Shown here in pieces: positions 20,772 to 36,654 of a DNA stretch of 44,839 nucleotides. The stretch is from assembly GCA_944323685.1 (NCBI GenBank), contig CALUTJ010000021.1:1-44839 (forward strand), read 5' to 3'. Source of the stretch: Candidatus Gastranaerophilales bacterium (lineage in GTDB: Bacteria; Cyanobacteriota; Vampirovibrionia; Gastranaerophilales; Gastranaerophilaceae). Below the pieces are notes generated by a model. It did no database searches. It saw only the letters and a program-made list of their open reading frames with translations, and was not told the DNA's origin. The translations under genes and the position numbers were made by a program. How positions within the stretch are numbered: the first letter of the stretch is position 1; every line of letters starts with the position of its first letter.

Positions 20772-21563
20772 TTATACTGCGTTCAAACGTTCTTGCACCA
20801 TATCATATAATATGCTTAATGCTCTTTTCAGCTTACGCGAAATCTGCATCTGTGATACGCCAAGCTTAACCGAAATTTCTTTTTGACTCAGATCTTGAAA
20901 ATATGTCATATCTATAATTTCTTTTAAATCAGGTTCAAGATTGTTTAAGCAATCCAATAACAGAAGCCTGTCTTCTTTAATATTTTGCATTTCTTCATAG
21001 CTTATATCAGGAATCCTGTCTGTCCAGTTTGTATATTCATCATCACTTTGCAAATCAAGCTGATCCAGTGAGATTATATTTTTTCGTCTGTCTTCATTAA
21101 TAACATATTTTAATTCTGTAACAGGCATTTCCATTTTTGCTGCGACTTCTTTGTCAGAAGGTTTTTCTCCGACTTCATCAAGAATTTCCGTGCTTATTTT
21201 GTTAAAACGGTAGCAAAGCTCTTGAATAGCTCTCGGTGCTTTTACAACAGAGGCTTTATCTCTTAAGTAATGTCTTATTTCTCCTGTAACAAGATATGTT
21301 GCATAAGATTTAAAATTGTTGCTGACGGAAGGGTCAAAAGACCTGATGGCTTTAATAAGACCAACGCTGCCTATTTGTATTATGTCTTCGATAGGGTCAG
21401 TGCTTCTTCTTGCGAGTGTATGCGCAATCCTTTTAACAATGGGCATGCACGTCATTGTTATCAAATTTTGGAGTTTTATCTTTTTTTGAGGATTCTCCAT
21501 TTTTAAGTATTCTTTGAGCCATTCATCAACCTGCTCAAAATTTACCAAGTTTACGTTTAGCAA
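20772..21563 (-). CDS. SigF-type (group 3) alternative sigma factor
   Basis: A 263-residue sigma-70 family protein lacking region 1. Region 2 contains DPIEDIIQIGSVGLIKAIRS and FDPSVSNNFKSYATYLVTGE; region 3 is around PSDKEVAAKMEMPVTELKYV; region 4 ends with LSQKEISVKLGVSQMQISRK. It should direct RNA polymerase to a separate promoter class. The start is TTG at 21563, supported by AGAGAGG 8 nt upstream. In cyanobacteria SigF-type factors control type IV pili; the prepilin peptidase immediately downstream fits that role. No anti-sigma factor gene is adjacent, so control of its activity is unclear. Confidence 0.88.
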   Translation of the reverse strand: MLNVNLVNFEQVDEWLKEYLKMENPQKKIKLQNLITMTCMPIVKRIAHTLARRSTDPIEDIIQIGSVGLIKAIRSFDPSVSNNFKSYATYLVTGEIRHYLRDKASVVKAPRAIQELCYRFNKISTEILDEVGEKPSDKEVAAKMEMPVTELKYVINEDRRKNIISLDQLDLQSDDEYTNWTDRIPDISYEEMQNIKEDRLLLLDCLNNLEPDLKEIIDMTYFQDLSQKEISVKLGVSQMQISRKLKRALSILYDMVQERLNAV

Positions 21564-24650: not shown

Positions 24651-24803
24651 ATGGAAAATAAAAATAAATACAACCAGAAGAAAAAATGCCCGGAAATTAA
24701 AATTAAAAATATGGGTGTAGATATAGACAAAAATGAGTACAGAGAAATTGTACTCTCAAACTCCGCACGTCCCGAAGCATCTTTTTACGATAAATACAGA
24801 TAG
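24651..24803 (+). CDS. Small hypothetical protein (50 residues)
   Basis: The frame runs from ATG 24651 to TAG 24803, filling the gap up to the stop of the convergent gene. The product is MENKNKYNQKKKCPEIKIKN, a middle MGVDIDKNEYREIVLSNSAR and end PEASFYDKYR; it is basic then acidic, with no signal or membrane segment. A taaaat box (24639-24644) ends six bases before the ATG, the same spacing as at other genes here, which supports a leaderless gene. An alternative ATG at 24643 in another frame gives 25 residues. The family is unknown. The rest of the 24469-24650 gap is AT-rich promoter sequence of acpP. Confidence 0.5.
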   Translation: MENKNKYNQKKKCPEIKIKNMGVDIDKNEYREIVLSNSARPEASFYDKYR

Positions 24804-24807
24804 AGCT

Positions 24808-26286
24808 TTAGCCGTAAGCCTTTATTACGTTTTCAAAAATGTGATACACGCAGTTTCGATAATCGGTTGCTGCGGGGCTTGTGTTAAACGCGCCGTCGTA
24901 GTGACGTTCGCATTTTGTCCACGCGTCTGAGCCGCTCATTTGTTTTGCATGCATCATTACCTCGTGAGTGTTTGAATACGGCGAAAGCGGAAAAATATCG
25001 TGCATTTGCATAAATGAAGGCAATTTTTCGCCTATATTTCTGTAACCGAACAGGCAAGAGTTTATTCTGTTCAGTCGTTGCGGGTAAAATATTCCGCCGT
25101 CGTCATTGTCGTTAGAAACTTCCGGCCCCCCTGCATATTCACCTGACCAGCTCTGCTGCTCTGATTCCCATTTAACACTGTTGAAATCATCAGCTTTTCC
25201 CCAGTCAGTGCCTGCTGTGAAGCCCATTTCTTTATAATCGTATCTGTTATCGCATTTTTCACCGATAAAGGACAAATCATGCCTGCCGGTTTGTTCTCTT
25301 ATTTTGTAGAGAATATAGCCCATCTGGTTTTTGTTTGGCAAATCGCCTACACCGCTGTAGCCGTTTCTATCCGTGATATGTTTTGCGCTGTCAAAGTAAA
25401 TTGCGTCAAATCCCAGTTCTATTCCCCATACGCAGGCATCAATAAAAGCTTTTTCGTGGTCGTACCAGTTGAATTCCCTGCCCTGAACCCGTAATTGTCC
25501 GGCAGAGAGAGGAATTCTGAAGCCTGTTTTAAAGCCTAAAAGGTGAGCCATATCGTTAAAAGCTTTCACCTGTTCATCAGCACCCATTTTGCCGTAAAGT
25601 CCGTCTGCTGTCAGGGTCTGGCTTATTCCCGAATGAAGGTTGGCGCAGTACAATGAATCGGCATCACTGTAACCGTCACCGTATATGCAGGGATATAATT
25701 GTGACAGCACAATACAGTTGGCAAAAGAGTTAGGCGAAGTAGGAATTGCCCTCATAAGCTTCATTGTATTTAAAAGCCCGTCAGTCAGCCTGTTTGAGTC
25801 ATTGTCGTATTTTGCGATAACACGCGGATTTATTTCTATATAATTGGCTCTTCTTCCCCATTTATCCCCAAAATTAGGAGAAGGTATATAAGGCGGGATT
25901 CCCGGATATTGATTATCAGGTTTTATTAACGTGCATAGAGATTGAATTGTTTGTTCGGGTGTGTGCTTTAAAAGTTCGGCAGGGTGGGCATTAACCCATT
26001 TTTTTATCCCGACCTGATAAAGGTGGTCTTTTGTCCAGTTGTCTTCATAGACATCGTTTCTGCCGGTAGAAATCCAGAACAGCTTTTTCAACGGTTGCGG
26101 GTCGCCGTAATATCCTTTAAAGGACACCAGAGACTTATTCAACATTGCCCTGTTCATATCAAACAGTGCAAAAGTGTTTTTTATAGTCGGCTTAGTTGCG
26201 CAGGATAAATCCTTATTCCTGTTATTTTTATAGTTATAAGATATTCCCTGATATGCCGGATTTAATGCAGTAATTAGTAGTGGCAT
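24808..26286 (-). CDS. GH13-like (alpha-amylase-fold) protein
   Basis: From ATG 26286 the product is 492 residues. The central part follows the order of an alpha-amylase type barrel: GFKTGFRIPLSAGQ, then ELGFDAIYFDSAKHI, which matches region II of GH13 with Asp as nucleophile and the AKH that follows, then LSFIGEKCDN, matching region III with Glu as acid/base, and FMQMHDIFPL where region IV has HD. The N-terminal about 60 residues are low in order and have no signal peptide. A polysaccharide-acting role is likely, substrate unknown. The start at 26304 (TTG) is less likely. Overall similarity to characterised enzymes is weak, so enzymatic activity is inference. Confidence 0.55.
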   Translation of the reverse strand: MPLLITALNPAYQGISYNYKNNRNKDLSCATKPTIKNTFALFDMNRAMLNKSLVSFKGYYGDPQPLKKLFWISTGRNDVYEDNWTKDHLYQVGIKKWVNAHPAELLKHTPEQTIQSLCTLIKPDNQYPGIPPYIPSPNFGDKWGRRANYIEINPRVIAKYDNDSNRLTDGLLNTMKLMRAIPTSPNSFANCIVLSQLYPCIYGDGYSDADSLYCANLHSGISQTLTADGLYGKMGADEQVKAFNDMAHLLGFKTGFRIPLSAGQLRVQGREFNWYDHEKAFIDACVWGIELGFDAIYFDSAKHITDRNGYSGVGDLPNKNQMGYILYKIREQTGRHDLSFIGEKCDNRYDYKEMGFTAGTDWGKADDFNSVKWESEQQSWSGEYAGGPEVSNDNDDGGIFYPQRLNRINSCLFGYRNIGEKLPSFMQMHDIFPLSPYSNTHEVMMHAKQMSGSDAWTKCERHYDGAFNTSPAATDYRNCVYHIFENVIKAYG

Positions 26287-26369
26287 ATCTATAGTAAAAC
26301 ACAAATAAAATTATGTAGTCAACCGTGTTAGCAATAAATTTTAATAGTTTCGGGGATAAATTTTATGTA

Positions 26370-26548
26370 ATCTAATCTAGTGTCGCAGTTGCCGCTTCGA
26401 GCCTTCGAGCCGTCACGGCTCACCTTTGCCTTCTTTTTCGGCTGAACTGTGGTGAAGCCTGAAAAATGACTTCACTATGTGAACAATGTGACACTCCAAA
26501 AATTCGTTCACGTCGTTTTGCTACTTATCGCGAATTTTTCTCGGACAA
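26370..26548. repeat. 179-bp dispersed repeat, copy 1
   Basis: From atctaatctagtgtcgcag to ttctcggacaa this segment matches 31327-31505 with about ten differences in 179 bases and no gaps. It contains inverted segments: gtgaag/cttcac, gagcc/ggctc and aaaaattcg/cgaattttt. It lies between two minus-strand genes, with its ttgtccgag end beside the stop of the gene at 26554. No protein is encoded. The neighbouring bases 26305-26369 show nothing else. Confidence 0.9.
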
Positions 26549-26553
26549 ATTTA

Positions 26554-27273
26554 TTACCATCCGCTAAAAATTTTCTTGATGCCTTTGCCGATTGCTTTAG
26601 CTGCATTAGCAATACCTTTGCCTACGGCTTTTGCTGCTTTACCGATGCCTTCGCCTACAGCTTTTACGCCGTTAACAATACCTTTGCCCACTTTTTTAAC
26701 ACCGTTTACAATGCCTTTGCCGACTGCGGCAATACCTTTGCCTATACCTTTAATAGGCTGCCATATTGAATTGCCTATACCTTTGAAGATAGAGCCTATG
26801 CCGCCGAGGATATTACCTTTGAATATCTGTCCGAAACCGCCAAAAACTCCGCCGAATAAGCTTTTTACGCCGCCTAAGGCTCCGTTAAATGTATGGCCGA
26901 AATATCCGCCGATGCCTTTTAATATTGTCCAGCCACCGCTGGCTGCACCGCCTATTACGCTTCCTACGTGAGTCAAAACCCCGCCTGCAAAAGCAATACC
27001 TCCTTTGACTGAACCTGCAATAGCTTCAAAAGGTGCACGTGCTATAGTCCATAATCCTGAGCCAAAATTTTTGATGTTATCAAAATCTCCTTCTTTTTCT
27101 TCAATCTGCACATCTCCTTCTGCATCTTCCGAGGCGTATTTTGCGATAAATTCCGCGTTTGAATATAATTCATCCGAGCTCACAATACCGTCTTGATTTG
27201 CATCCAGTTGTAAAATTTCACTTGCAGATAGCGCAGTGTTAGTAAACGGATTAATAACAATTCTGTCTGACAT
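26554..27273 (-). CDS. EF-hand protein with C-terminal 11-residue cationic repeats
   Basis: The 239-residue protein starts at ATG 27273 (MSDRIVINPFTNTALSASEI), with a ribosome-binding site (GGAATAGG). An EF-hand loop DANQDGIVSSDE is near residue 24-35. The region about 60-180 is Gly-rich and hydrophobic (SVKGGIAFAGGVLTHVGSVI). The C-terminus has five consecutive 11-residue units: VGKGIVNGVKK, VGKGIVNGVKA, VGEGIGKAAKA, VGKGIANAAKA, IGKGIKKIFSG, then W. These form amphipathic cationic helices. There is no signal peptide. A membrane-active or scaffold role could fit; the function is not known. The 3' end adjoins repeat copy 1. Confidence 0.7.
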   Translation of the reverse strand: MSDRIVINPFTNTALSASEILQLDANQDGIVSSDELYSNAEFIAKYASEDAEGDVQIEEKEGDFDNIKNFGSGLWTIARAPFEAIAGSVKGGIAFAGGVLTHVGSVIGGAASGGWTILKGIGGYFGHTFNGALGGVKSLFGGVFGGFGQIFKGNILGGIGSIFKGIGNSIWQPIKGIGKGIAAVGKGIVNGVKKVGKGIVNGVKAVGEGIGKAAKAVGKGIANAAKAIGKGIKKIFSGW

Positions 27274-27454
27274 AATACCTATTCCCTGTTTTTCTTTTTG
27301 TAATACCAATTTTCCTGACTAATATATGTATCGGCAGATTTAAGAAAAAATTTAGGCTTTTCGTAAGAAAAATTTTTGCATTTTCGAAAAAGCTTGATAT
27401 AATTGGTTTTTAGAGGTAAAATCGATTTTACAAAACTTTACAAAAGGTGTTTTT

Positions 27455-28771
27455 ATGAAAATCGCTTTAATTATGGTCAAATCTAAGGTATATGCATTTA
27501 AGAACCGCTCGATGTTTTTTAATAAAATGTCAGACAGCCTGACCCTCGGGATGTTGCATGCAATCATAAAAAACGCTTTTGAAGATATTGAAATAGAACT
27601 TTATGACGAGACAGTCGAAATTGTAAAAAAAGAAGATATTGATGCCGATTTGATAGGGATTTCGGCAATTACGCCCTGCATAAACAGGGCATATGAGTAC
27701 GCAAGGTATTTCAAAAATAAAAACAAAACCGTTTTTATAGGCGGAGTACACGCAACATTAAACCCTGATGAAGTAAAAAAACACTGCGACAGCGTAGTTG
27801 TAGGGCTTGCTAACGAAACACTGCCAGCGTTGATAAAGGATTTTTGTGAGGGAAAATTGCAAGACATTTATTGTCAAAGTTCGGGTATGTCTTTTGAGAA
27901 TATGGTTTTTCCCACAAGAAATATCTATGAAGCAAAGAGCTTTTTCGGTGATGAACTAAATATGGTGCAGGCAACTTTCGGCTGTATGAATATGTGCGGA
28001 TTTTGCGTTCAGCCGTATGTCTGTTTAGGGCATCACAAAAGACCCGTGCAGGATGTTGTAAAAGAAATTAGTCAAATACAAGACGGTTATGTGGAATTTT
28101 ATGATCCCAACCTTGCCAAAGACAAAGATTATTTAAAAGAACTGTGTAAAGCATTGATTCCGTTAAAGAAAAAATGGTTTGCCCCGATGACGATTTCCGT
28201 ATGTTATGATGATGAACTTCTTTCTTTATTGAGTAAAGCGGGCTGCTGCGAGGTTTTGATAGGGTTTGAATCGGTAAGTCAGGAGTCTGTAAAGTCAATA
28301 AACAAAAAATTTAATACGGTTGAAGATTATAAAAACTGTGTAAAAAAATTGCACGATAACAACATTAAAGTAATGGGCAGTTTTGTGCTGGGGCTGGACG
28401 GTGATGACGGAAATTCTTTCAAAAAAATTCTCGATTTTGTAAACGAGGCACACATAGATTTTGTACGTTACACAATAAACACGCCTTATCCCGGGACTCC
28501 TTATTTTGAAGAATTGAAAAGACAAAACAGGATTATTAATACCTGCTGGGATTTTTATGACTGCCGTCATTGTGTTATACAGCCGGCTTTAATGACAAAA
28601 GAAGAGTTGGAGAAAGGCTATGATTATCTGTGGCATAAGACATACAGCCTGAAAAACGTAATAAAAAGGTTAAACTACAATCAGTCAAAACTCAAATTTT
28701 TAAAACAGGTCATTATTAACTTTGTTTTCGGCGTTGTTTATAATCGTATGATGTTTAAAAAATACTATTAA
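27455..28771 (+). CDS. B12-binding-domain radical SAM protein
   Basis: A 438-residue protein. The N-terminal about 140 residues form a cobalamin-binding-like Rossmann domain (DADLIGISAITPCINRAYEY, VFIGGVHATLNPDEV). The radical SAM cluster motif CxxxCxxC is FGCMNMCGFCV at about residue 178-188, followed by the SAM barrel (GFESVSQESVKSINKKFNTV, MGSFVLGLDGDDGNSF, RYTINTPYPGTPYFEEL). Such enzymes perform methylations or other radical chemistry, often on lipids, sugars or peptides. AAAGG is upstream of the ATG. It stands alone; the substrate is not evident. The next gene is 41 bp on. Confidence 0.88.
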   Translation: MKIALIMVKSKVYAFKNRSMFFNKMSDSLTLGMLHAIIKNAFEDIEIELYDETVEIVKKEDIDADLIGISAITPCINRAYEYARYFKNKNKTVFIGGVHATLNPDEVKKHCDSVVVGLANETLPALIKDFCEGKLQDIYCQSSGMSFENMVFPTRNIYEAKSFFGDELNMVQATFGCMNMCGFCVQPYVCLGHHKRPVQDVVKEISQIQDGYVEFYDPNLAKDKDYLKELCKALIPLKKKWFAPMTISVCYDDELLSLLSKAGCCEVLIGFESVSQESVKSINKKFNTVEDYKNCVKKLHDNNIKVMGSFVLGLDGDDGNSFKKILDFVNEAHIDFVRYTINTPYPGTPYFEELKRQNRIINTCWDFYDCRHCVIQPALMTKEELEKGYDYLWHKTYSLKNVIKRLNYNQSKLKFLKQVIINFVFGVVYNRMMFKKYY

Positions 28772-28800
28772 TTAAGGATTCGAACAGGTATTTAAGGGGT

Positions 28801-28806
28801 TAAAAT
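28801..28806 (+). promoter_or_regulatory. -10-like box for the exported protein at 28813
   Basis: taaaat ends six bases before ATG 28813. aagggg lies further upstream (about 28793-28798), too far for a good ribosome-binding site, so a leaderless transcript is possible. Confidence 0.35.
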
Positions 28807-28812
28807 TATAGT

Positions 28813-29802
28813 ATGAAAAAGTTTCTTACACTGATTGTTCAGGTATGCTTTATTTGCGTGCAAATATTTTCGCCGGTCTTTGCCGGAGAAAAACTCCCTG
28901 ACCTGCCAGATTTGCCGCCGGAATTTGATGCTGTGATTCCGCCTGAGGGCGTTGATGTTTTTTCGCCTTCAACAACGCCGGCAGAAGTTGCCCCTAAAAA
29001 TCCGGTGCAGCAAACCGTATCAACACCTGCCTCAACAAAGCAGACAAATGAAAACTATTGTGCAAAGCCGGTGCAAACTGCACCCGCACAGCAGCAAACA
29101 AACGTAAAAACGCAACCCGTAAAATCAAGTTTAACCCCTGTTAAAACAACATTACAAACAAAAAACAAAATTATCACGCCGCAAAAAACGTATACGTCCA
29201 AAACAACTGCGACAAATACATATGTTGTTCCTAAAGGGAAAAAGTTTAATGTAAGGCTGCAACAATCGATTTCAAGCAATTCGCCGGTCGGGACAAGGAT
29301 AAGCTTTGTAAGCAGATATCCTGAAACTTCGCCGTATATAACTATTCCGGCAGGTACGGTTTTTAAAGGCCGTATTACGGATTCTCATCCCCCGCAGCTT
29401 ACAGGCAACGGCGGTTTGATAGTTATAAACGTTGATCAGATGGTTTATAACGGAAAAACATACGAAATTGATGCAAAAATAAGCGTAGCAAATGACAAAC
29501 ATATCTTTTTTAACAACATAAAAGGCAAAAGAATGTATTTGAGAAGCATTCCAAAATCTATAAAACCCGGCAGCAGATTTTTCAAAAAAATGTGGAGAAA
29601 GACAACTAATCTTGCCAGAAATGACAACGGGGTTGAAATTATTCTGACTCCGTTTACCTTCCTTACCGGTGCGGTTGTTTATGCAGTAAACTTTGTTTCC
29701 TCGCCTGTACTGGCTTTGTTTTATAAAGGACAGTCCATAACAATTCCCTCCGGAGCATTGTTTAAAATTCAGTTAAGAGATGATGCAATCATCAGAAAGT
29801 AA
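28813..29802 (+). CDS. Exported protein with Thr/Pro/Gln-rich linker and C-terminal beta domain
   Basis: A 329-residue protein with a Sec signal peptide (MKKFLTLIVQVCFICVQIFS, cleavage probably after VFA). Residues about 30-135 form a low-complexity Pro/Thr/Gln/Lys linker. A C-terminal domain (about 136-329) begins VPKGKKFNVRLQQSISSNSP and contains YITIPAGTVFKGRITDSHPP and ITIPSGALFKIQLRDDA, resembling duplicated beta modules with IPAG/IPSG turns. It is likely periplasmic or surface-attached. No catalytic motif is seen and the family is not identified. Confidence 0.72.
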   Translation: MKKFLTLIVQVCFICVQIFSPVFAGEKLPDLPDLPPEFDAVIPPEGVDVFSPSTTPAEVAPKNPVQQTVSTPASTKQTNENYCAKPVQTAPAQQQTNVKTQPVKSSLTPVKTTLQTKNKIITPQKTYTSKTTATNTYVVPKGKKFNVRLQQSISSNSPVGTRISFVSRYPETSPYITIPAGTVFKGRITDSHPPQLTGNGGLIVINVDQMVYNGKTYEIDAKISVANDKHIFFNNIKGKRMYLRSIPKSIKPGSRFFKKMWRKTTNLARNDNGVEIILTPFTFLTGAVVYAVNFVSSPVLALFYKGQSITIPSGALFKIQLRDDAIIRK

Positions 29803-29828
29803 AAAGTCTATGCAGATTATAAACAGAG

Positions 29829-30911
29829 CTATTTTTTTATCGATTTTAAAAACTCGAGTTTCTGTTTTGTGGTTTCATAAAGTTCTTTATACATAGCATT
29901 TTCGCTTTTTTTAAAAATCCGGAATTTGCATTCTCTTGCAGCAATACATTTATAGTCTATATTGCTGTCATTTACATTTTTAAAGCAAAGTTTAAAAAGT
30001 AAACAGTAGAGCAGTCTTTTAAATCTGTTCTGTCCAGTTTTTCCGGCATGTCCGGTGCTTTCTTTACGTAGATTTATATGCGGAGATATTTCTATATCGG
30101 AGGGCATTGACATAAAATTCGGATACTGTCTTTGTGCGTAAGCCGCAGGTTGATTTTGGATTGTGATTTCAGAGTCTTCAAATTTTATTTTTTGAAGGGG
30201 AAAAATCATCTCGTATGTAAAAAAATCTCTGTGGCGGAGTATGTAATTGTCAATATTGTCAAGCCCGTAATAAATCCGGTTGCTGAGCGGTACAAATGCG
30301 GTATTGGTTTTTCTTTCTTTTGCAAAGAACGAAAGAATTTCTTTGTAATTATCTTTATGGTATTTTTCTTTGTTGATTCTGGTTATGTACTCTCTGTACC
30401 ACTCCATTGTTATATCTTTTCTGTAGTAATCGTGCGGGAAGATGTCGATATTGACGCAATCATCAATATTTGTTCCGTAAATAAGCTGCGTGTGGTGAGG
30501 TGTTTGAGAGTAAATAACTTTTTGGGGGTGTTTTTTTAAATATTCATTCCAGACTTCTGCTCTGTTATTTTTAGAAAAATATATTTTTTCCGGCGGAATG
30601 CGAAAACAATTCTTTCTGCAAAACGCCAAAAAACTGTCATAATCTTCTCTCATCATACCTATGTCAAAATCATCATCCCAGGGGACAAAACCGCCGTGTC
30701 TGAGGGCGCCGATTAAAGTCCCTCCAATTGGAAAATAGGACAAACCAAGCGTATCAATTTGTTTGATAATTTTTTTGCAAAAATCAAAAGTCTTTAACTG
30801 ATATTCTCTAAGCTCACCCGTTGCACACCCCAGTTTTGTTGCATCAAGTGTTTGATAGAAGTCTTTATATTCTCTTATAATTTCGCCGTATAATTTTTTA
30901 TGGTTTTTCAT
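29829..30911 (-). CDS. LicD-family phospho-ligand transferase
   Basis: A 360-residue LicD/fukutin-type nucleotidyltransferase-fold protein. The signature is IGGTLIGALRHGGFVPWDDD (about residue 62-81), followed by FDIGMMREDYDSF, with acidic residues for metal binding. LicD enzymes transfer phosphocholine from CDP-choline to glycans. Here no licA or licB choline genes are visible; instead the operon makes a CMP-activated phosphonate, so transfer of a phosphonate such as 2-hydroxyethylphosphonate to a surface glycan is the best inference. It is the last gene of the group and is 13 bp from the small Rossmann protein. Confidence 0.85.
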   Translation of the reverse strand: MKNHKKLYGEIIREYKDFYQTLDATKLGCATGELREYQLKTFDFCKKIIKQIDTLGLSYFPIGGTLIGALRHGGFVPWDDDFDIGMMREDYDSFLAFCRKNCFRIPPEKIYFSKNNRAEVWNEYLKKHPQKVIYSQTPHHTQLIYGTNIDDCVNIDIFPHDYYRKDITMEWYREYITRINKEKYHKDNYKEILSFFAKERKTNTAFVPLSNRIYYGLDNIDNYILRHRDFFTYEMIFPLQKIKFEDSEITIQNQPAAYAQRQYPNFMSMPSDIEISPHINLRKESTGHAGKTGQNRFKRLLYCLLFKLCFKNVNDSNIDYKCIAARECKFRIFKKSENAMYKELYETTKQKLEFLKSIKK

Positions 30912-30924
30912 TGCTTTATTCTGT

Positions 30925-31323
30925 TTAACCCGATATTTGTTTTATTATAAAAGATAACGGTATATTCAACAAACGTTGAACCTCAATGTTTTCGTTTTTT
31001 GTGTTAACAAGCAGGTTGTATTTTATATACTGTCTGATTTTTTCGTGTTCTTTTAAGCATATAAGTATTGCATTGCATTCTGTTTCCTGTAGTTCTTGCG
31101 GACTGATGGTTTTGTGGGTAAAAAAGGTTTCTGAAGATTCGTTTTTGTATTTTGCATCACATACGGCTGTTATATTTAGCTTTGAAAGGTCAAAGTTTTC
31201 AAATAAAACATAAGACATTAGCCCCGCGCCGTAAATAACAACGGATTTGTTTTTATATTTTTTTGCCAGCTTGTTTATCTGCTTTTGGGCATTTATGTCG
31301 TTGTAAAATTTCAGGTAGTCCAT
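30925..31323 (-). CDS. Small Rossmann-fold protein of a glycan cluster
   Basis: From ATG 31323 the product is 132 residues; a longer frame to 31380 would use codons from the 179-bp repeat and is rejected. YKNKSVVIYGAGLMSYVLFE is a nucleotide-binding loop, followed by DLSKLNITAVCDAKYKNES and NAILICLKEHEKIRQYIKYN. Paralogous units occur at 39056-39457 and at the N-terminus of the FkbM protein. The fold resembles an NAD or NDP-sugar binding half-domain; on its own it may bind a sugar nucleotide or act as a partner of the transferases. Confidence 0.7.
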   Translation of the reverse strand: MDYLKFYNDINAQKQINKLAKKYKNKSVVIYGAGLMSYVLFENFDLSKLNITAVCDAKYKNESSETFFTHKTISPQELQETECNAILICLKEHEKIRQYIKYNLLVNTKNENIEVQRLLNIPLSFIIKQISG

Positions 31324-31326
31324 TTT

Positions 31327-31505
31327 ATCTAATCTAGTGTCGCAGTTGCCGCCTCGAGCCTTCGAGCCGTCACTGCTCACCTTTGCCTTCTTTTTCGGCT
31401 GAACTGTGGTGAAGCCTGAAAAATGGCTTCACTATGTGAATAATGTGTCACTCCAAAAATTCGTTCACATCGCTTTGCTCCTTATCACAAATTTTTCTCG
31501 GACAA
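31327..31505. repeat. 179-bp dispersed repeat, copy 2
   Basis: Same length and orientation as 26370-26548 with about 94% identity. Its ttgtccgag end supplies the last seven codons, including the stop, of the FkbM methyltransferase gene (LSEKNL then TGA), and its other end lies 3 bp before the ATG of the downstream gene. Same internal inverted segments as copy 1. Confidence 0.9.
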
Positions 31506-32639
31506 TTTTTGTTCAATAAGTTCATCAGGTATTGCGTACAAAACTGTTTCATGTACTTTTGCACTGTAGTGACCTAGGTGGAATGTATAATTTTGTCCTT
31601 TAAGTAATTCTGATAAATAGACAGGTATATCAGCAAAGTCGTCAATGCTGTGGTAAATTGAAATAGCCATTTGCGGACGGTCGGAGAGTATGGTTTTTTC
31701 TCCGCCTTTTAGGGCATTTAGCTCGGAACCTTCTATATCCATTTTTATAAAATCGATTTTTTCTATACTATTCGATTGTTTAAACCTATCTATTGTGGTG
31801 GTTTTTATTGTATAAATATTATCAATTTCATTAAGAGGTCTGCTGTTTTTAGCTTCCTGAACATACGAACCTGCCTGATTGTTTGGGGTTTCTACAAAAG
31901 AAAGTTCTTCTTCCTTATTCCATAAACCTTTGTCTATAATCTCAACTTCAGGCATTTTTTGTATAAAAAAGTCATAAGTTTCTTTTTTAAATTTGTCATA
32001 CATCGGGTCAAAGCCGTAGATTTTTTTCAAATTTTTAAATAATTTTTTGTAGACAAAAAATTGGACTCCGTTGCAGACACCTGCATCAAAAATTGTTTTT
32101 ATTGAATCTTTGTTTATAAATTCCATATACTGTTTATGGTAGTTTCTGACAGGGCCAAACAGCTTGATACCGTGTCTATCCAAAACATATTGTCTTATTT
32201 TTTCATCGTCTGAGCCGAGTAAAAATTCGCAAAGTATTTTATACAGCTTTTTGTCATCATTTGTTTTTAATACATCACAGGCTTTTTCAAATTTTGGAAC
32301 ATAATCCTTGCGTCTACAGTATCTTTCTTCTTCTCTGGATATTATCAGGTATTTGATATCCATACAGGTAAAAATTTCTGAAAGCTCATGTATTGATTTT
32401 CTTGTCGTAAAAACAAGAATATCAAAAGAGTCTTTAACTGCTTCAATTTCCGTCAGATTATATATTTTTAGACCGTTCATTTCTCCTTGAGCAAAGGAAT
32501 CTATGCAGCAGACCATATTTATATCGGGACGGTTTTCTTTTATGTAATTGAATAAATGCGAAGCAACAACACCTGCTCCAAAAAATGCGATTCTTGTTTT
32601 TTGAGGAATTTTCTCTATGAAATCTTTATCTGTTTGCAT
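31485..32639 (-). CDS. FkbM-family methyltransferase with N-terminal Rossmann domain
   Basis: A 384-residue protein. The N-terminal about 110 residues (KTRIAFFGAGVVASHLFNYI) are the same Rossmann type as the small proteins of this region. The C-terminal part is an FkbM-type SAM methyltransferase: TIFDAGVCNGVQFFVYKKLF (SAM loop), KIYGFDPMYD, IDFIKMDIEGSELNALKGGE and DRPQMAISIYHS. FkbM enzymes O-methylate sugars or other hydroxyl groups; in this operon the acceptor could be the glycan or the phosphonate hydroxyl. The extreme C-terminus (LSEKNL) is encoded by repeat copy 2. It starts 10 bp after the Ppd fusion gene. Confidence 0.85.
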   Translation of the reverse strand: MQTDKDFIEKIPQKTRIAFFGAGVVASHLFNYIKENRPDINMVCCIDSFAQGEMNGLKIYNLTEIEAVKDSFDILVFTTRKSIHELSEIFTCMDIKYLIISREEERYCRRKDYVPKFEKACDVLKTNDDKKLYKILCEFLLGSDDEKIRQYVLDRHGIKLFGPVRNYHKQYMEFINKDSIKTIFDAGVCNGVQFFVYKKLFKNLKKIYGFDPMYDKFKKETYDFFIQKMPEVEIIDKGLWNKEEELSFVETPNNQAGSYVQEAKNSRPLNEIDNIYTIKTTTIDRFKQSNSIEKIDFIKMDIEGSELNALKGGEKTILSDRPQMAISIYHSIDDFADIPVYLSELLKGQNYTFHLGHYSAKVHETVLYAIPDELIEQKLSEKNL

Positions 32640-32649
32640 ATTTACTCCG

Positions 32650-34851
32650 TTATTGTTTAAACAATTCTTTTAAATCTTCAATTATCACTGGATTATTTTT
32701 TAACCTGTCTTTGTTGACAGAGTTTGTGATGTTTTCAATATCTTTTATACCGAGTTTTTTTAAACTCTGTTCAAGAGCGATATTTTTAAAAAGTTTTTCA
32801 AAATATTTGTCGATATTTTTTATGTTGAGTATTTGTTTGATTTCTTTAACCGTATTTTTTACGTATTGAGACCCGCGCGTGTCTGTTGTATTCAGGGCTT
32901 TTTCGTTTTGTTTCATAAGGGCGGCAATGCTTAAGGAAACAGCGTGTCCGTGCGCAAGATTGTAATCCGTCGTTATTTTGTAAGACAGCGCATGAGCTGC
33001 TGTGGTTTTGGAAATATTTATTGCTCTGCCTGACAGAAATGCTGCCTGTATCATTTTTTGTGCGTATAGTTCGCTTTTTGAGTTAACGTATTTTTCAAGG
33101 TAATCGCGGCAAAGTTCCATTGCTTTTTTTGCGTAAAATTTACTTTGAGCGGTTGAATTAACCGACCAGTAAGATTCTATTGCCTGACACAATGCATCAG
33201 CAGCGCAGCAGGCTTTAAGATATTTAGGATTGTCCTTTACTAAAGCGGCATCAAGTATTGCATAATCCGGCATTATAAAGTCGTGTTCAAAAGATTGCTT
33301 TTTGCCGTCAATGTATACAACAGCAAACTTTGTGGCTTCGGCTCCGGTGCCGGCGGTTGTCGGTATTGCTAAAAGAGGTGTTGATTTTATTGCGCTTTCG
33401 GTTGCAGTTGCCTTAACAACAGTGATTTTGTTGTCGTAACAGAACCTGAAAAGCTTTGCAAAATCCATTACGCTGCCGCCGCCTGCCGCTATTATAAAAT
33501 CAAATTTTTTTAATTTTTTAAGCGCTTTATCTATCTCCTGTGATTTAGGATTCGGGCTTATATCACTGTAAGTCTTAAATTTTATGCCTCTGAGCTGTTT
33601 TTCGATTTTGGATTTTATTTTTTTATAAGATTTTTTACCGGTAAAAACAAGAACATTTTTGGCATTTCTGCTTTTTATCAGCATTTTTATGTTTTCCAAC
33701 GAGTTTTTTTCGTCAAAAACAAGGTTTTGTTTTGCAAATTCCATAAATATTTCTTTGTTTTGCTGCGGCTTTTCTTTAGGTCTGCCGAGGTCTTTTCTTG
33801 CGCCGCATTTTACTTTTACTTCAAGAAGCGCAGGGCCTTGTGAGGCATTTAATTTTTTTAAGGCTTTTATAAGTTCCGTTTTGCTGCCTGCGCTTAAGAC
33901 TTCTTTGTAGCCGCAGGATTTTGCAAGTGTTTTAAAATCTATTGTATCTGCACTTGTCGGCTGTGCTCCGACAGAATCGTGTGCCTGATTGTTAAAGACA
34001 ATGTGTTTAAAGTTTTTTGCCTTTGTTTTGGCTATAACAGGCAGTGCACCTAAGTGCATGATAAAAGCACCGTCACCGTCAAAGCAGTACACATTTCTAT
34101 CCGGCTGTTCAAGTGCTATGCCGAGTGCTATTGAACTCGCATGTCCCATTGAACCGACCGTTAAAAAGTCCTGATTGTGCAATTGGTGCTGTGCTTCTCT
34201 GTATTCGTAAAGCTCCCTTGATATTTGTCCCGTGGTTGATACAATAAGCGCGTTTTTATCAACCGTTTGAGCAACCAGCTGTACTGCATCTTCTCTTGAG
34301 AGTTTGTAACCGTTATTTTTTGTATTTTTGAGTTTGTAGGCTTTAAAAGAACCTTTTTTTACGATTAAAGCAAAAGGCTTTTGCGTTTTTTCTATGTATT
34401 TGCAGGCCTTATCAAGAACCTCGAGTGCTTTTTTATTGTCCTGCGGCAAGATTTCATAATCAATGGAACAGGCTTTTAAAATTTTATCCGTAACTTTGCC
34501 CTGTTTTATGTGCTGAGGTTCGTCTTTGACCTCCGGTTCGCCGCGCCAGCCTATTATCATAAGCAGAGGAATTTTGTAGACTTCTTCATCGGTCAGGGAA
34601 AGCAATGGATTTATGCAGTTTCCGGTGCCTGAATTTTGCATATAAACAGCGGCAGGCTTTTGGCTTGCAAGGTAATGACCTGCCGCAAGCGCAATCGCGT
34701 TGCCCTCATTAGCTGTTATTATGTGTTTGTCAGCGGGTGCGTTGTCTGTTATGTATGCGCAAAGGTCTTTTAAGAGGCTGTCCGGTACCCCGCAGAAAAA
34801 GTTGATTCCGTTTTTAAGTAATGTTTGGTAAAAGTCTTTTGTTTCTATCAT
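32650..34851 (-). CDS. Phosphonopyruvate decarboxylase fused to iron-dependent alcohol dehydrogenase
   Basis: A 733-residue two-domain fusion from ATG 34851, which overlaps the previous stop (ATGA). Residues 1-375 match phosphonopyruvate decarboxylase (thiamine diphosphate): [12 protein letters not shown], the Glu in [20 protein letters not shown], and the cofactor motif [15 protein letters not shown] with a following NN. Residues about 390-733 are an iron-containing alcohol dehydrogenase: [29 protein letters not shown], and metal-ligand His in TAAHALSYK and LAHGHAVSL. Together they convert phosphonopyruvate to phosphonoacetaldehyde and reduce it to 2-hydroxyethylphosphonate. Absence of an aminotransferase argues against 2-aminoethylphosphonate. 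Confidence 0.9.
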
Positions 34852-36161
34852 TTTGCACCCGGTATTAATGTAATTATGTCTTTTATTTTCATGCAATAAT
34901 TTTCGGAAGCCTTCTGACAGCTGTGGTTTTCCAGAATTGATTTAGCTGCGTTTACCATAGCCGGATAAGCCGCTCTTAAAAGGTGGTTAGCATAGATTAC
35001 CACGTTTATTCCGTTTTCAGCAAGTTCATCTTCAGTTACCCGTGAATAAGACGAGGGCACAACAACAAGCGGTTTTCTGTTTTCCAGTTTATTGTATTCT
35101 TTTGCAAATTCTTTTATCTCGTCAAAAGAGGTTGAGCGCGAGTGTATCATAATTCCGTCAGCCCCAGCTGCAAGATAAGTTTTTGCTCTTTCCAGTGCAT
35201 CTTGCTGTCCTTTTTCGAGAATAAGGCTTTCTATACGTGCGATAATCATAAAATCTTCACCGACTTGAGCCTGTTTGCCTGCCTGTATTTTTTGTGCAAA
35301 AACCTCTTTGTTTTCCTGTTCTTGCGCGACCTCTGTTCCGAAAAGGGAATTCTTTTTCAAGCCTGTCTTATCTTCAATAATGATAGCCGAAACACCTAAA
35401 CGTTCGAGAGATTTTACAGTGAACACAAAATGCTCCTGAGGGCCTCCGTTGTCGCCGTCATAGATAATTGGTTTTGTTGTGGCATCTAAAATATCGTTAA
35501 GACCTTCAAGTCTGGAAGTAGTGTCTATGTAACCGATATCAGGTTTTGCTTTTGCTGCGGATTGAGTGAGCGAAGATATCCAGATTCCGTCAAATTCGTA
35601 TTTCCGGTTATTCTGCACTACGCTTGTGTTTTCAACGATTAAACCACTCAGTCCGTTATGAGCCTCACAGATTTTTACGATATCCTTGCTTGCTAGCAGT
35701 CTTCTCAGTCTTGCGCATCTTATCTCGGGTGTGGTGCCGATTTCTTTTAAAACATTATTTAGCTGAGTGGAAGAAATCCCTTTTGTATACGGAATATCAA
35801 TGACTTTTCCGCCCCATTCTTTCATGACATCGATTACTCTTTGTCTTGTTTGTGCTTGAACTCCTTCTTTCCAGTCGTCACCGTGCAAAACAAAATCGGG
35901 TTTTATTTTTTTCAGGTTCGGTACGTAGTCTAAAGTTTCCTGCGCAATTACCTGTGTTACGCCTTTTACGTTTTCTATAACCACTTTTCTCTGTTCAAAA
36001 TTCATATAAGGCAGTCTTTTGTAGCTTGCGATTGCCTTATCCGTCAGCAGACCTACTATAATTTCTCCGGTTTCTCCGGCTATTTTTCTTGCTTCGTTAA
36101 TAATGTTTAAATGTCCGGGGTGTAATAAATCCGCACTCATCCCTATATAGACTTTGGGCAT
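34848..36161 (-). CDS. Cytidylyltransferase fused to phosphoenolpyruvate phosphomutase
   Basis: A 437-residue fusion. Residues 1-140 are a nucleotidyltransferase with the HxGH motif in [18 protein letters not shown] and ISSTQL near residue 130. Residues about 150-437 are PEP mutase (PepM/AepX): [20 protein letters not shown], the signature [16 protein letters not shown] and IIARIESLI. The mutase makes phosphonopyruvate from PEP; the cytidylyltransferase domain activates a phosphonate as a CMP derivative, as known for PntC-type enzymes. First gene of the operon, with GAGGAGAGG in its leader. Confidence 0.93.
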
Positions 36162-36345: not shown

Positions 36346-36654
36346 ATGCTTACTGAAAGGTATATAGAAGGTCTTAATCAGCGTCATCAACTGGAATTTA
36401 ATAATGTGGGCAAGGAAATACTTCCCTGGCTTGAGGATGTTGCTGCTGAAAATAATTGTAAAATTGACCGAAAAGAATGGAAAAGTAAATATAACAGCTA
36501 TGTAATTTATGACTATGAGCCGTTTTGCTCTGACGGTTTTGAGATTAATCTGGTTATTTCATCTTTAAGCAGAGAGCATCTCGATTTTTTAAAATATTTG
36601 TACGAAAACAAACTTAATACAATCGAATATTTAAACAATTGCGTAATTAATTAA
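36346..36654 (+). CDS. Hypothetical protein divergent from the phosphonate operon
   Basis: A 102-residue product with a strong ribosome-binding site (GAGGAG 7 nt upstream). The sequence (LTERYIEGLNQRHQLEFNNV, then WLEDVAAENNCKIDRKEWKS) is helical and charged, with no signal or membrane segment, and ends LKYLYENKLNTIEYLNN. It lies alone on the plus strand between two minus-strand glycan groups and is followed by a terminator. I do not recognise the family. Confidence 0.65.
   Translation: MLTERYIEGLNQRHQLEFNNVGKEILPWLEDVAAENNCKIDRKEWKSKYNSYVIYDYEPFCSDGFEINLVISSLSREHLDFLKYLYENKLNTIEYLNNCVIN

Follow-up and report, generated by a model that had tools for sequence, protein, structure and literature searches.

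The question raised by this locus is what a small bacterial protein does that joins an acidic head to a long glycine-rich region ending in lysine-rich 11-residue repeats. The gene lies in a 44,839-nucleotide stretch of Candidatus Gastranaerophilales DNA (the window). The original prediction gave its coordinates correctly, and we assigned it to the minus strand, read from the ATG at 27273 to the stop at 26554 (26554..27273, 239 aa). We refer to its product as the undecad protein. The reading that we favour, with roughly even confidence, is that of a peripheral membrane-coating protein which would bind through the amphipathic-helix mode of 11-residue repeats and is the partner of a radical SAM enzyme. 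The protein consists of an acidic head domain (residues 1-62, or about 1-63; 27088..27273, minus strand) and a glycine-rich region of 176 residues with 11/3 amphipathic periodicity (residues 64-239; 26557..27084, minus strand), helical in a low-confidence model. Its last 66 residues form the lysine-rich undecad tail, defined by lag-11 identity and hydrophobic moment (residues 174-239; 26557..26754, minus strand). The tail closes with the motif KAIGKGIKKIFSGW (residues 226-239; 26557..26598, minus strand), in which A227, I228, G229, G231, K233, K234, I235 and F236 are invariant in the nine homologues. The AlphaFold model of the full protein had a mean pLDDT of 43, with helices 36-40 residues long, and was too poor to be used for a fold search.

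We then compared the tail with shuffled versions of itself. Five repeats occupy residues 185-239 (GKGIVNGVKKV, GKGIVNGVKAV, GEGIGKAAKAV, GKGIANAAKAI and GKGIKKIFSGW). Over residues 174-239, the lag-11 identity was 0.58, compared with 0.16 ± 0.05 after shuffling, and none of 5000 shuffles reached this value. At 98.18 degrees, the hydrophobic moment was 0.57, compared with 0.11 ± 0.06 in shuffles (reached in 0 of 2000). The results confirmed the five cationic repeats of the original prediction and its description of the tail as amphipathic and lysine-rich, with a net charge of +13. One repeat apart, 32 residue pairs were identical; 15 of these used the same codon, while 16.5 were expected, indicating that the repeats are kept at the protein level and do not reflect a fresh DNA duplication. 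In residues 64-173, the lag-11 identity was not significant, being equalled or exceeded in 749 of 5000 shuffles; the hydrophobic moment was 0.34 with its peak at 98 degrees, a value that none of 2000 shuffles reached. This middle part is amphipathic at 98 degrees and is not a sequence repeat. The amphipathic pattern thus extends further than first noticed, to include residues 64-173. Across residues 64-239, of which glycine makes up 27%, the moment was one-sided (phase 215-325 degrees per 22-mer) and kept a strict 11/3 register over 16 undecads.

A periodicity of this kind is also found in phages. Repeats of 11 residues are described in tail tape measure proteins (PMC5099701), and the undecad protein shares with the tape measure proteins of PHROGs a glycine-rich hydrophobic 11-residue periodicity. 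PHROGs tape-measure profiles matched residues 64-239 (E 1.5e-8), and the two relatives found on viral contigs both code for one very long tape-measure-like protein that has repeats of this type. The protein could accordingly be a domesticated, membrane-inserting piece of a tape measure protein. In the controls, however, the reversed sequence still matched (5e-4), as did a shuffle that preserved wheel position (4e-4), while a plain shuffle matched nothing, indicating that much of the match comes from periodicity and composition. Unlike tape measure proteins, the undecad protein has 239 aa, and no tail genes were recognised around its gene. We consider this origin very improbable.

To return to the membrane-coating reading, the Kyte-Doolittle profile, the only method used here, showed neither a transmembrane segment nor a hydrophobic signal-peptide core in the undecad protein, and no 19-residue window reached 1.6 in any of the nine homologues. 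The helix therefore looks made to lie on a membrane and not to cross it. The lack of a signal peptide agrees with the original prediction. Its suggestion of pore formation gained no specific support, although the protein might still form oligomeric pores. On contact with lipid, 11-residue repeats of this kind form 3-11 helices in alpha-synuclein and apolipoproteins, according to PMC5889406. The tail had hydrophobic, aromatic and charged fractions of 0.45, 0.03 and 0.23, compared with 0.47, 0.02 and 0.24 for the alpha-synuclein helix (Table 1 of the same source). The respective moments were 0.57 and 0.30, the alpha-synuclein value being a mean of Heliquest windows and ours a single whole-tail value, which becomes 0.55 as a mean of 33-mers. 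The undecad protein thus resembles alpha-synuclein and the perilipins in its tandem 11-mers, its 3-11 helix moment and its low aromatic content, with composition classes like those of alpha-synuclein. It differs from them in its glycine content, in tail charges carried almost only by lysine, in its acidic EF-hand head and in being bacterial. No perilipin/PAT Pfam match was found up to E 1, and no synuclein consensus was seen by eye, so that neither a sequence relation nor membership in a named family was shown. The composition close to that of the alpha-synuclein helix, the stronger moment and the nearly exclusive use of lysine would place the protein on an anionic membrane surface. The 27% glycine, unusual for a helix, and the low pLDDT of the full model count against a coating helix.

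The charge distribution allows another explanation. In the window protein, the head carried a net charge of -10 (first 60 residues) to -12 (first 63), and the tail +13. Such a tail could bind the acidic head of the same protein or a polyanion such as a nucleic acid or a polyphosphate-like polymer, with no membrane role. Binding a polyanion does not call for a strong hydrophobic moment kept up over 176 residues, however, and we give this explanation very little weight.

We next turned to the head. The loop DANQDGIVSSDE (residues 24-35; 27169..27204, minus strand) has the canonical EF-hand positions, DxNxDGxVxxxE. A model of the head (pLDDT 63) showed a helix-loop-helix, with helices at residues 17-23 and 33-38. 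The second acidic stretch SEDAEGDVQIEE (residues 48-59; 27097..27132, minus strand), possibly a degenerate second loop, was disordered in this model. Its D50 and G53 are invariant in the nine homologues, and D50, E52 and G53 are kept in an alignment of 18 head domains. When a profile of these 18 heads was run against the PDB, it matched EF-hand proteins with a best E value of 4.6e-8, and 340 sequences matched at E ≤ 0.1. The single undecad protein stayed under the Pfam gathering score (EF-hand_5, 14 bits versus 25.9), and Foldseek with the head model found nothing at E ≤ 0.001, with S100-type and domain-swapped EF-hands among its six weak matches. The calcium-binding loop proposed before is therefore supported by its canonical positions and by the profile, from which calcium binding itself would be predicted. 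The loop was present in six of the nine homologues and absent from three (L008, L009 and L010), in which an acidic stretch like DxEGxVxIxE remains. As these three have lost the loop, calcium control, also suggested before, is not supported as a general mechanism. In this genome, three proteins carry the head: the undecad protein and a tandem pair, each of about 780 aa, encoded on a different contig (L070:5644-10512, about 6 kb from fliS). The pair showed no Pfam family above cut-off. Further matches had E values of 0.02 or worse.

To follow the protein across genomes, we searched for relatives. Full-length relatives were found in 9 of the 23 genomes of one genus of Candidatus Gastranaerophilales. 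Among 286 genomes of the order, full-length matches were confined to this genus, and the other matches were to the head alone or the tail alone. A scan of named genomes returned eight loci, six titled Candidatus Gastranaerophilales and two uncultured bacterium. All nine homologues showed a moment peak at 98-100 degrees, a charge asymmetry (head net -8 to -12, tail +12 to +15) and the acidic stretch around the invariant D50 and G53; none lacked the amphipathic pattern. Repeat number varied, with one 11-residue unit missing in four of the nine. Length differences in multiples of 11 held for this tail gap and not for the middle region. The whole-gene dN/dS was 0.04-0.19 (five pairs computed), indicating that the gene is under purifying selection; by region, dS was saturated in four comparisons, which gave no ratio. 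Amino acid identity between the window protein and those of G013, G017 and G016 was 0.70-0.89 in the head and 0.76-0.80 in the tail, while it was 0.43-0.46 in the middle (0.89, 0.79 and 0.44, respectively, for G013). This divergence of the middle between a similar head and tail speaks for the coating reading, together with the 11/3 moment, the repeats, and the lack of a transmembrane window and the charge asymmetry in 9/9 homologues. The membrane association first proposed is thus supported at the level of sequence, by the 11/3 peak and by the acidic head and basic tail in all nine.

Similar tails occur elsewhere in the order. C-terminal xGxGIxNGxK-like 11-mers were found on several other small Gastranaerophilales proteins (L058, L061 and L174; L059 and L060; L175; L176), and the tails of L061 and L058 were 50-54% identical to that of the undecad protein. 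These proteins have unrelated N-termini, and L058 and L061 have tryptophan at some tail positions. With a tail profile, matches at E ≤ 1e-4 came from 18 of 146 genomes, including the nine with the full-length gene; matches in other families arise partly by construction, since 2 of the 10 profile rows came from one such family. A gene for a B12 radical SAM protein lies about 1.4 kb from one other undecad array, in L072, and none was seen in L075.

To find out what accompanies the gene, we examined its neighbours. A gene for a B12-binding radical SAM enzyme (27455..28771, plus strand; Pfam Radical_SAM and B12-binding above cut-off) is the divergent partner of the undecad gene. The results showed that 9 of the 23 genus genomes have both genes and that the other 14 have neither. 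Genes at least 59% identical to that of the enzyme were found in exactly the nine genomes with the undecad gene; distant relatives (30-47%) occur elsewhere in G002, G011 and G018, which have no cassette. The flanks are genes for a 498-aa protein (p498; 24808..26304, minus strand), directly downstream of the undecad gene, and for a 329-aa protein with a signal-peptide-like start (p329; 28813..29802, plus strand). In all nine genomes, the undecad gene is followed by p498 on the same strand and faces the enzyme gene on its other side. The gap between the undecad gene and p498 is 15-105 bases in the eight relatives and 249 in the window. We found p498 in 23/23 genus genomes, and in most of them there was a second relative as well, about 45% identical. 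Searches of Pfam, NCBIfam, PHROG and the PDB gave no match to p498. Among the 14 cassette-less genomes, p498 adjoins p329 in 10 and has different neighbours in the other four. Seven of these ten junctions had no ORF of note between the two genes. The remaining junctions held a pilin-like gene in G021 (L207:1681-2472), a 95-aa gene in G009 (L209:1620-1907) and a 94-aa ORF in G004, pilin-like calls being based on the type IV pilin motif. Because of such inserts (the pilin-like and 95-aa genes), the junction is a possible insertion hotspot. Cassette presence, mapped on a p498 tree with 26 rows (23 from the genus, 3 from outside), required six changes, at least four of them forced by well-supported branches, although p498 itself may have recombined. 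These findings indicate that the undecad gene and the radical SAM gene are a jointly inherited cassette. A joint function can only be inferred from this, since adjacent genes can move together and be gained or lost in a single event without working together. The partner gene, the promoter described below and the two further head-domain proteins had been missed in the original prediction.

Two other features of the window were noted around the cassette. Between the undecad gene and p498 lies an interspersed repeat of about 180 bp (26360-26545), with at least 40 copies at 90-100% identity in the 2.3-Mb genome (40 scored of 181 candidates, query included) and related copies in 18 of the 23 genus genomes. 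Shorter copies seem to be missing query positions 69-124, the middle part, and their ends adjoin directly. A near-copy of the repeat's palindrome GAGCCGTCACGGCTC is found at 31364-31378, with a chance expectation of 0 in the window. For the bases that separate the undecad gene from p498, RNA folding was not convincing (z -1.5), and Rfam gave nothing up to E 0.1 across 24800-29900. On the other side, about 6.3 kb of genes (29829-36161) separate p329 from a 102-aa gene at 36346. These two are close neighbours in the eight cassette relatives, so that an insertion in the window is probable.

To assess what the partner might act on, we compared the enzyme with known models. The nearest NCBIfam models were HpnJ and BchE, both far below cut-off, and RiPP radical SAM models matched weakly, also below cut-off. 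In the PDB, the nearest sequences were those of an apramycin biosynthetic oxidoreductase (6fd2) and of a further radical SAM protein. The substrates of HpnJ and BchE are hydrophobic, which would make a lipid or membrane-bound substrate the simplest link between the enzyme and a membrane coat. The strict pairing of one B12 radical SAM gene with one small glycine-rich protein gene is also that of B12 radical SAM/RiPP pairs. The undecad protein could thus itself be the substrate, as a large RiPP-like or otherwise post-translationally modified membrane peptide, with the head as leader and the glycine-rich core methylated or cross-linked. Its conserved C-terminus, the conserved head stretch around DxEGxVxIxE and the glycine-rich core would suit such a role. 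Unlike RiPP pairs, however, the two-gene cassette has no peptidase, exporter or known leader family; the head also occurs on the proteins of about 780 aa with no enzyme beside them, and the enzyme is nearer to the HpnJ/BchE-type models, all matches being below cut-off. In addition, the loci of enzymes 44-51% identical to the partner in other genomes (L134-L141) gave no undecad gene match among their ORFs, indicating that this enzyme class does not need the undecad protein. The substrate explanation is the main rival, and we regard it as unlikely. We also looked for dedicated small partners of distant radical SAM relatives in 13 loci; the small proteins of L138 were unrelated by BLAST. Four small genes stand in a row there (L138:1176-3241), two genes from the distant relative; three of them have a common tyrosine/asparagine-rich start, and two of these three end in FxGW like the undecad protein.

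We further analysed the promoters. A putative sigma28/SigF-type promoter, TAAA-N15-GCCGATA, lies about 55 bases before the undecad ATG (27329..27354, minus strand), a sequence that follows the sigma28/SigF consensus. On the undecad strand, 24-81 bases before the ATG, it was exact in seven of the nine cassettes and had one mismatch in the other two. For the radical SAM gene, a putative sigma70-like promoter, TTGCAT-N16-TATAAT, was picked out by eye (27376..27403, plus strand), and its TATAAT block was largely conserved in a nine-way alignment. The motif had 14 sites in its own genome, compared with 2 for a reversed-pattern control. Several of the 14 fall within ORFs or repeats. About six precede ORFs, and one of these ORFs looked pilin-like by eye. 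Both other head-domain genes of this genome carry similar sites, and when upstream scores were compared for 51 ORFs (150 aa or longer) from three stretches of the genome, all three head-domain genes were among the four best. A SigB/SigF/FliA-like sigma factor gene in the window (20772-21563), which matched the SigF, SigB and FliA models below their cut-offs, is a candidate reader of the motif. The genome has six Flagellin_N matches, and no good sigma28/SigF-type site was found before these genes at a spacer of 11, where all six scored 10-11 of 16. With a spacer of 12, L201 reached 13 in a sensible place; L199 reached 13 at 242 bases, which is unlikely. A flagellar regulon was thus not shown, with five of the six flagellin-domain genes having no good promoter of this type, and we restricted the name to "sigma28/SigF-type" for this reason.

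Promoters of the sigma28/SigF type are often linked to motility and export. Together with the cationic amphipathic tail, this would suit an exported antibacterial protein or effector whose tail disrupts target membranes, and the head weakly matched the type III effector model XopAW. That match was far below the NCBIfam cut-off (14.8 versus 120 bits), however, and looks like the EF-hand alone; the protein has no signal-peptide core, no immunity-like gene lies between the flanks, and the cassette otherwise holds only the enzyme. PADLOC, a search for defence systems, gave nothing for three of the four proteins, the undecad protein included, and one weak match, to the radical SAM enzyme. We find an effector role very doubtful.

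For the membrane-coating protein that we prefer, the following mode of action can be proposed. Residues 64-239 would be largely unfolded in solution and, like alpha-synuclein and other 11-mer proteins, would become a 3-11 helix upon binding an anionic membrane. The acidic head, presented or folded back onto the tail, may tune or present membrane binding, together with calcium in those proteins that keep the loop. The enzyme and the undecad protein may act together at the membrane, where the enzyme, most simply, would modify hydrophobic molecules, such as a lipid, in the coated surface. The promoter would bring about expression along with surface or motility functions. A bolder form is a two-gene module in which the radical SAM enzyme modifies the 3-11 amphipathic protein, or the lipid that it coats, so that chemical modification and, in some species, calcium bound at the EF-hand head would switch the coat; this we consider quite unlikely.

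If true, such a module would be a bacterial counterpart of alpha-synuclein and perilipin. Long membrane-coating helices of 11-residue repeats are mainly known from eukaryotes. Here, a gut bacterium of a non-photosynthetic cyanobacterial line would have such a helix joined to an EF-hand head, and its gene is inherited together with that of one enzyme. By title, no paper on such a protein was found in the literature on Gastranaerophilales and radical SAM, flagella or EF-hand. The pairing makes function testable for two genes to which family searches assigned no specific function. Since similar tails are found on several unrelated proteins of the order, a result on the undecad protein would help to read the whole set.
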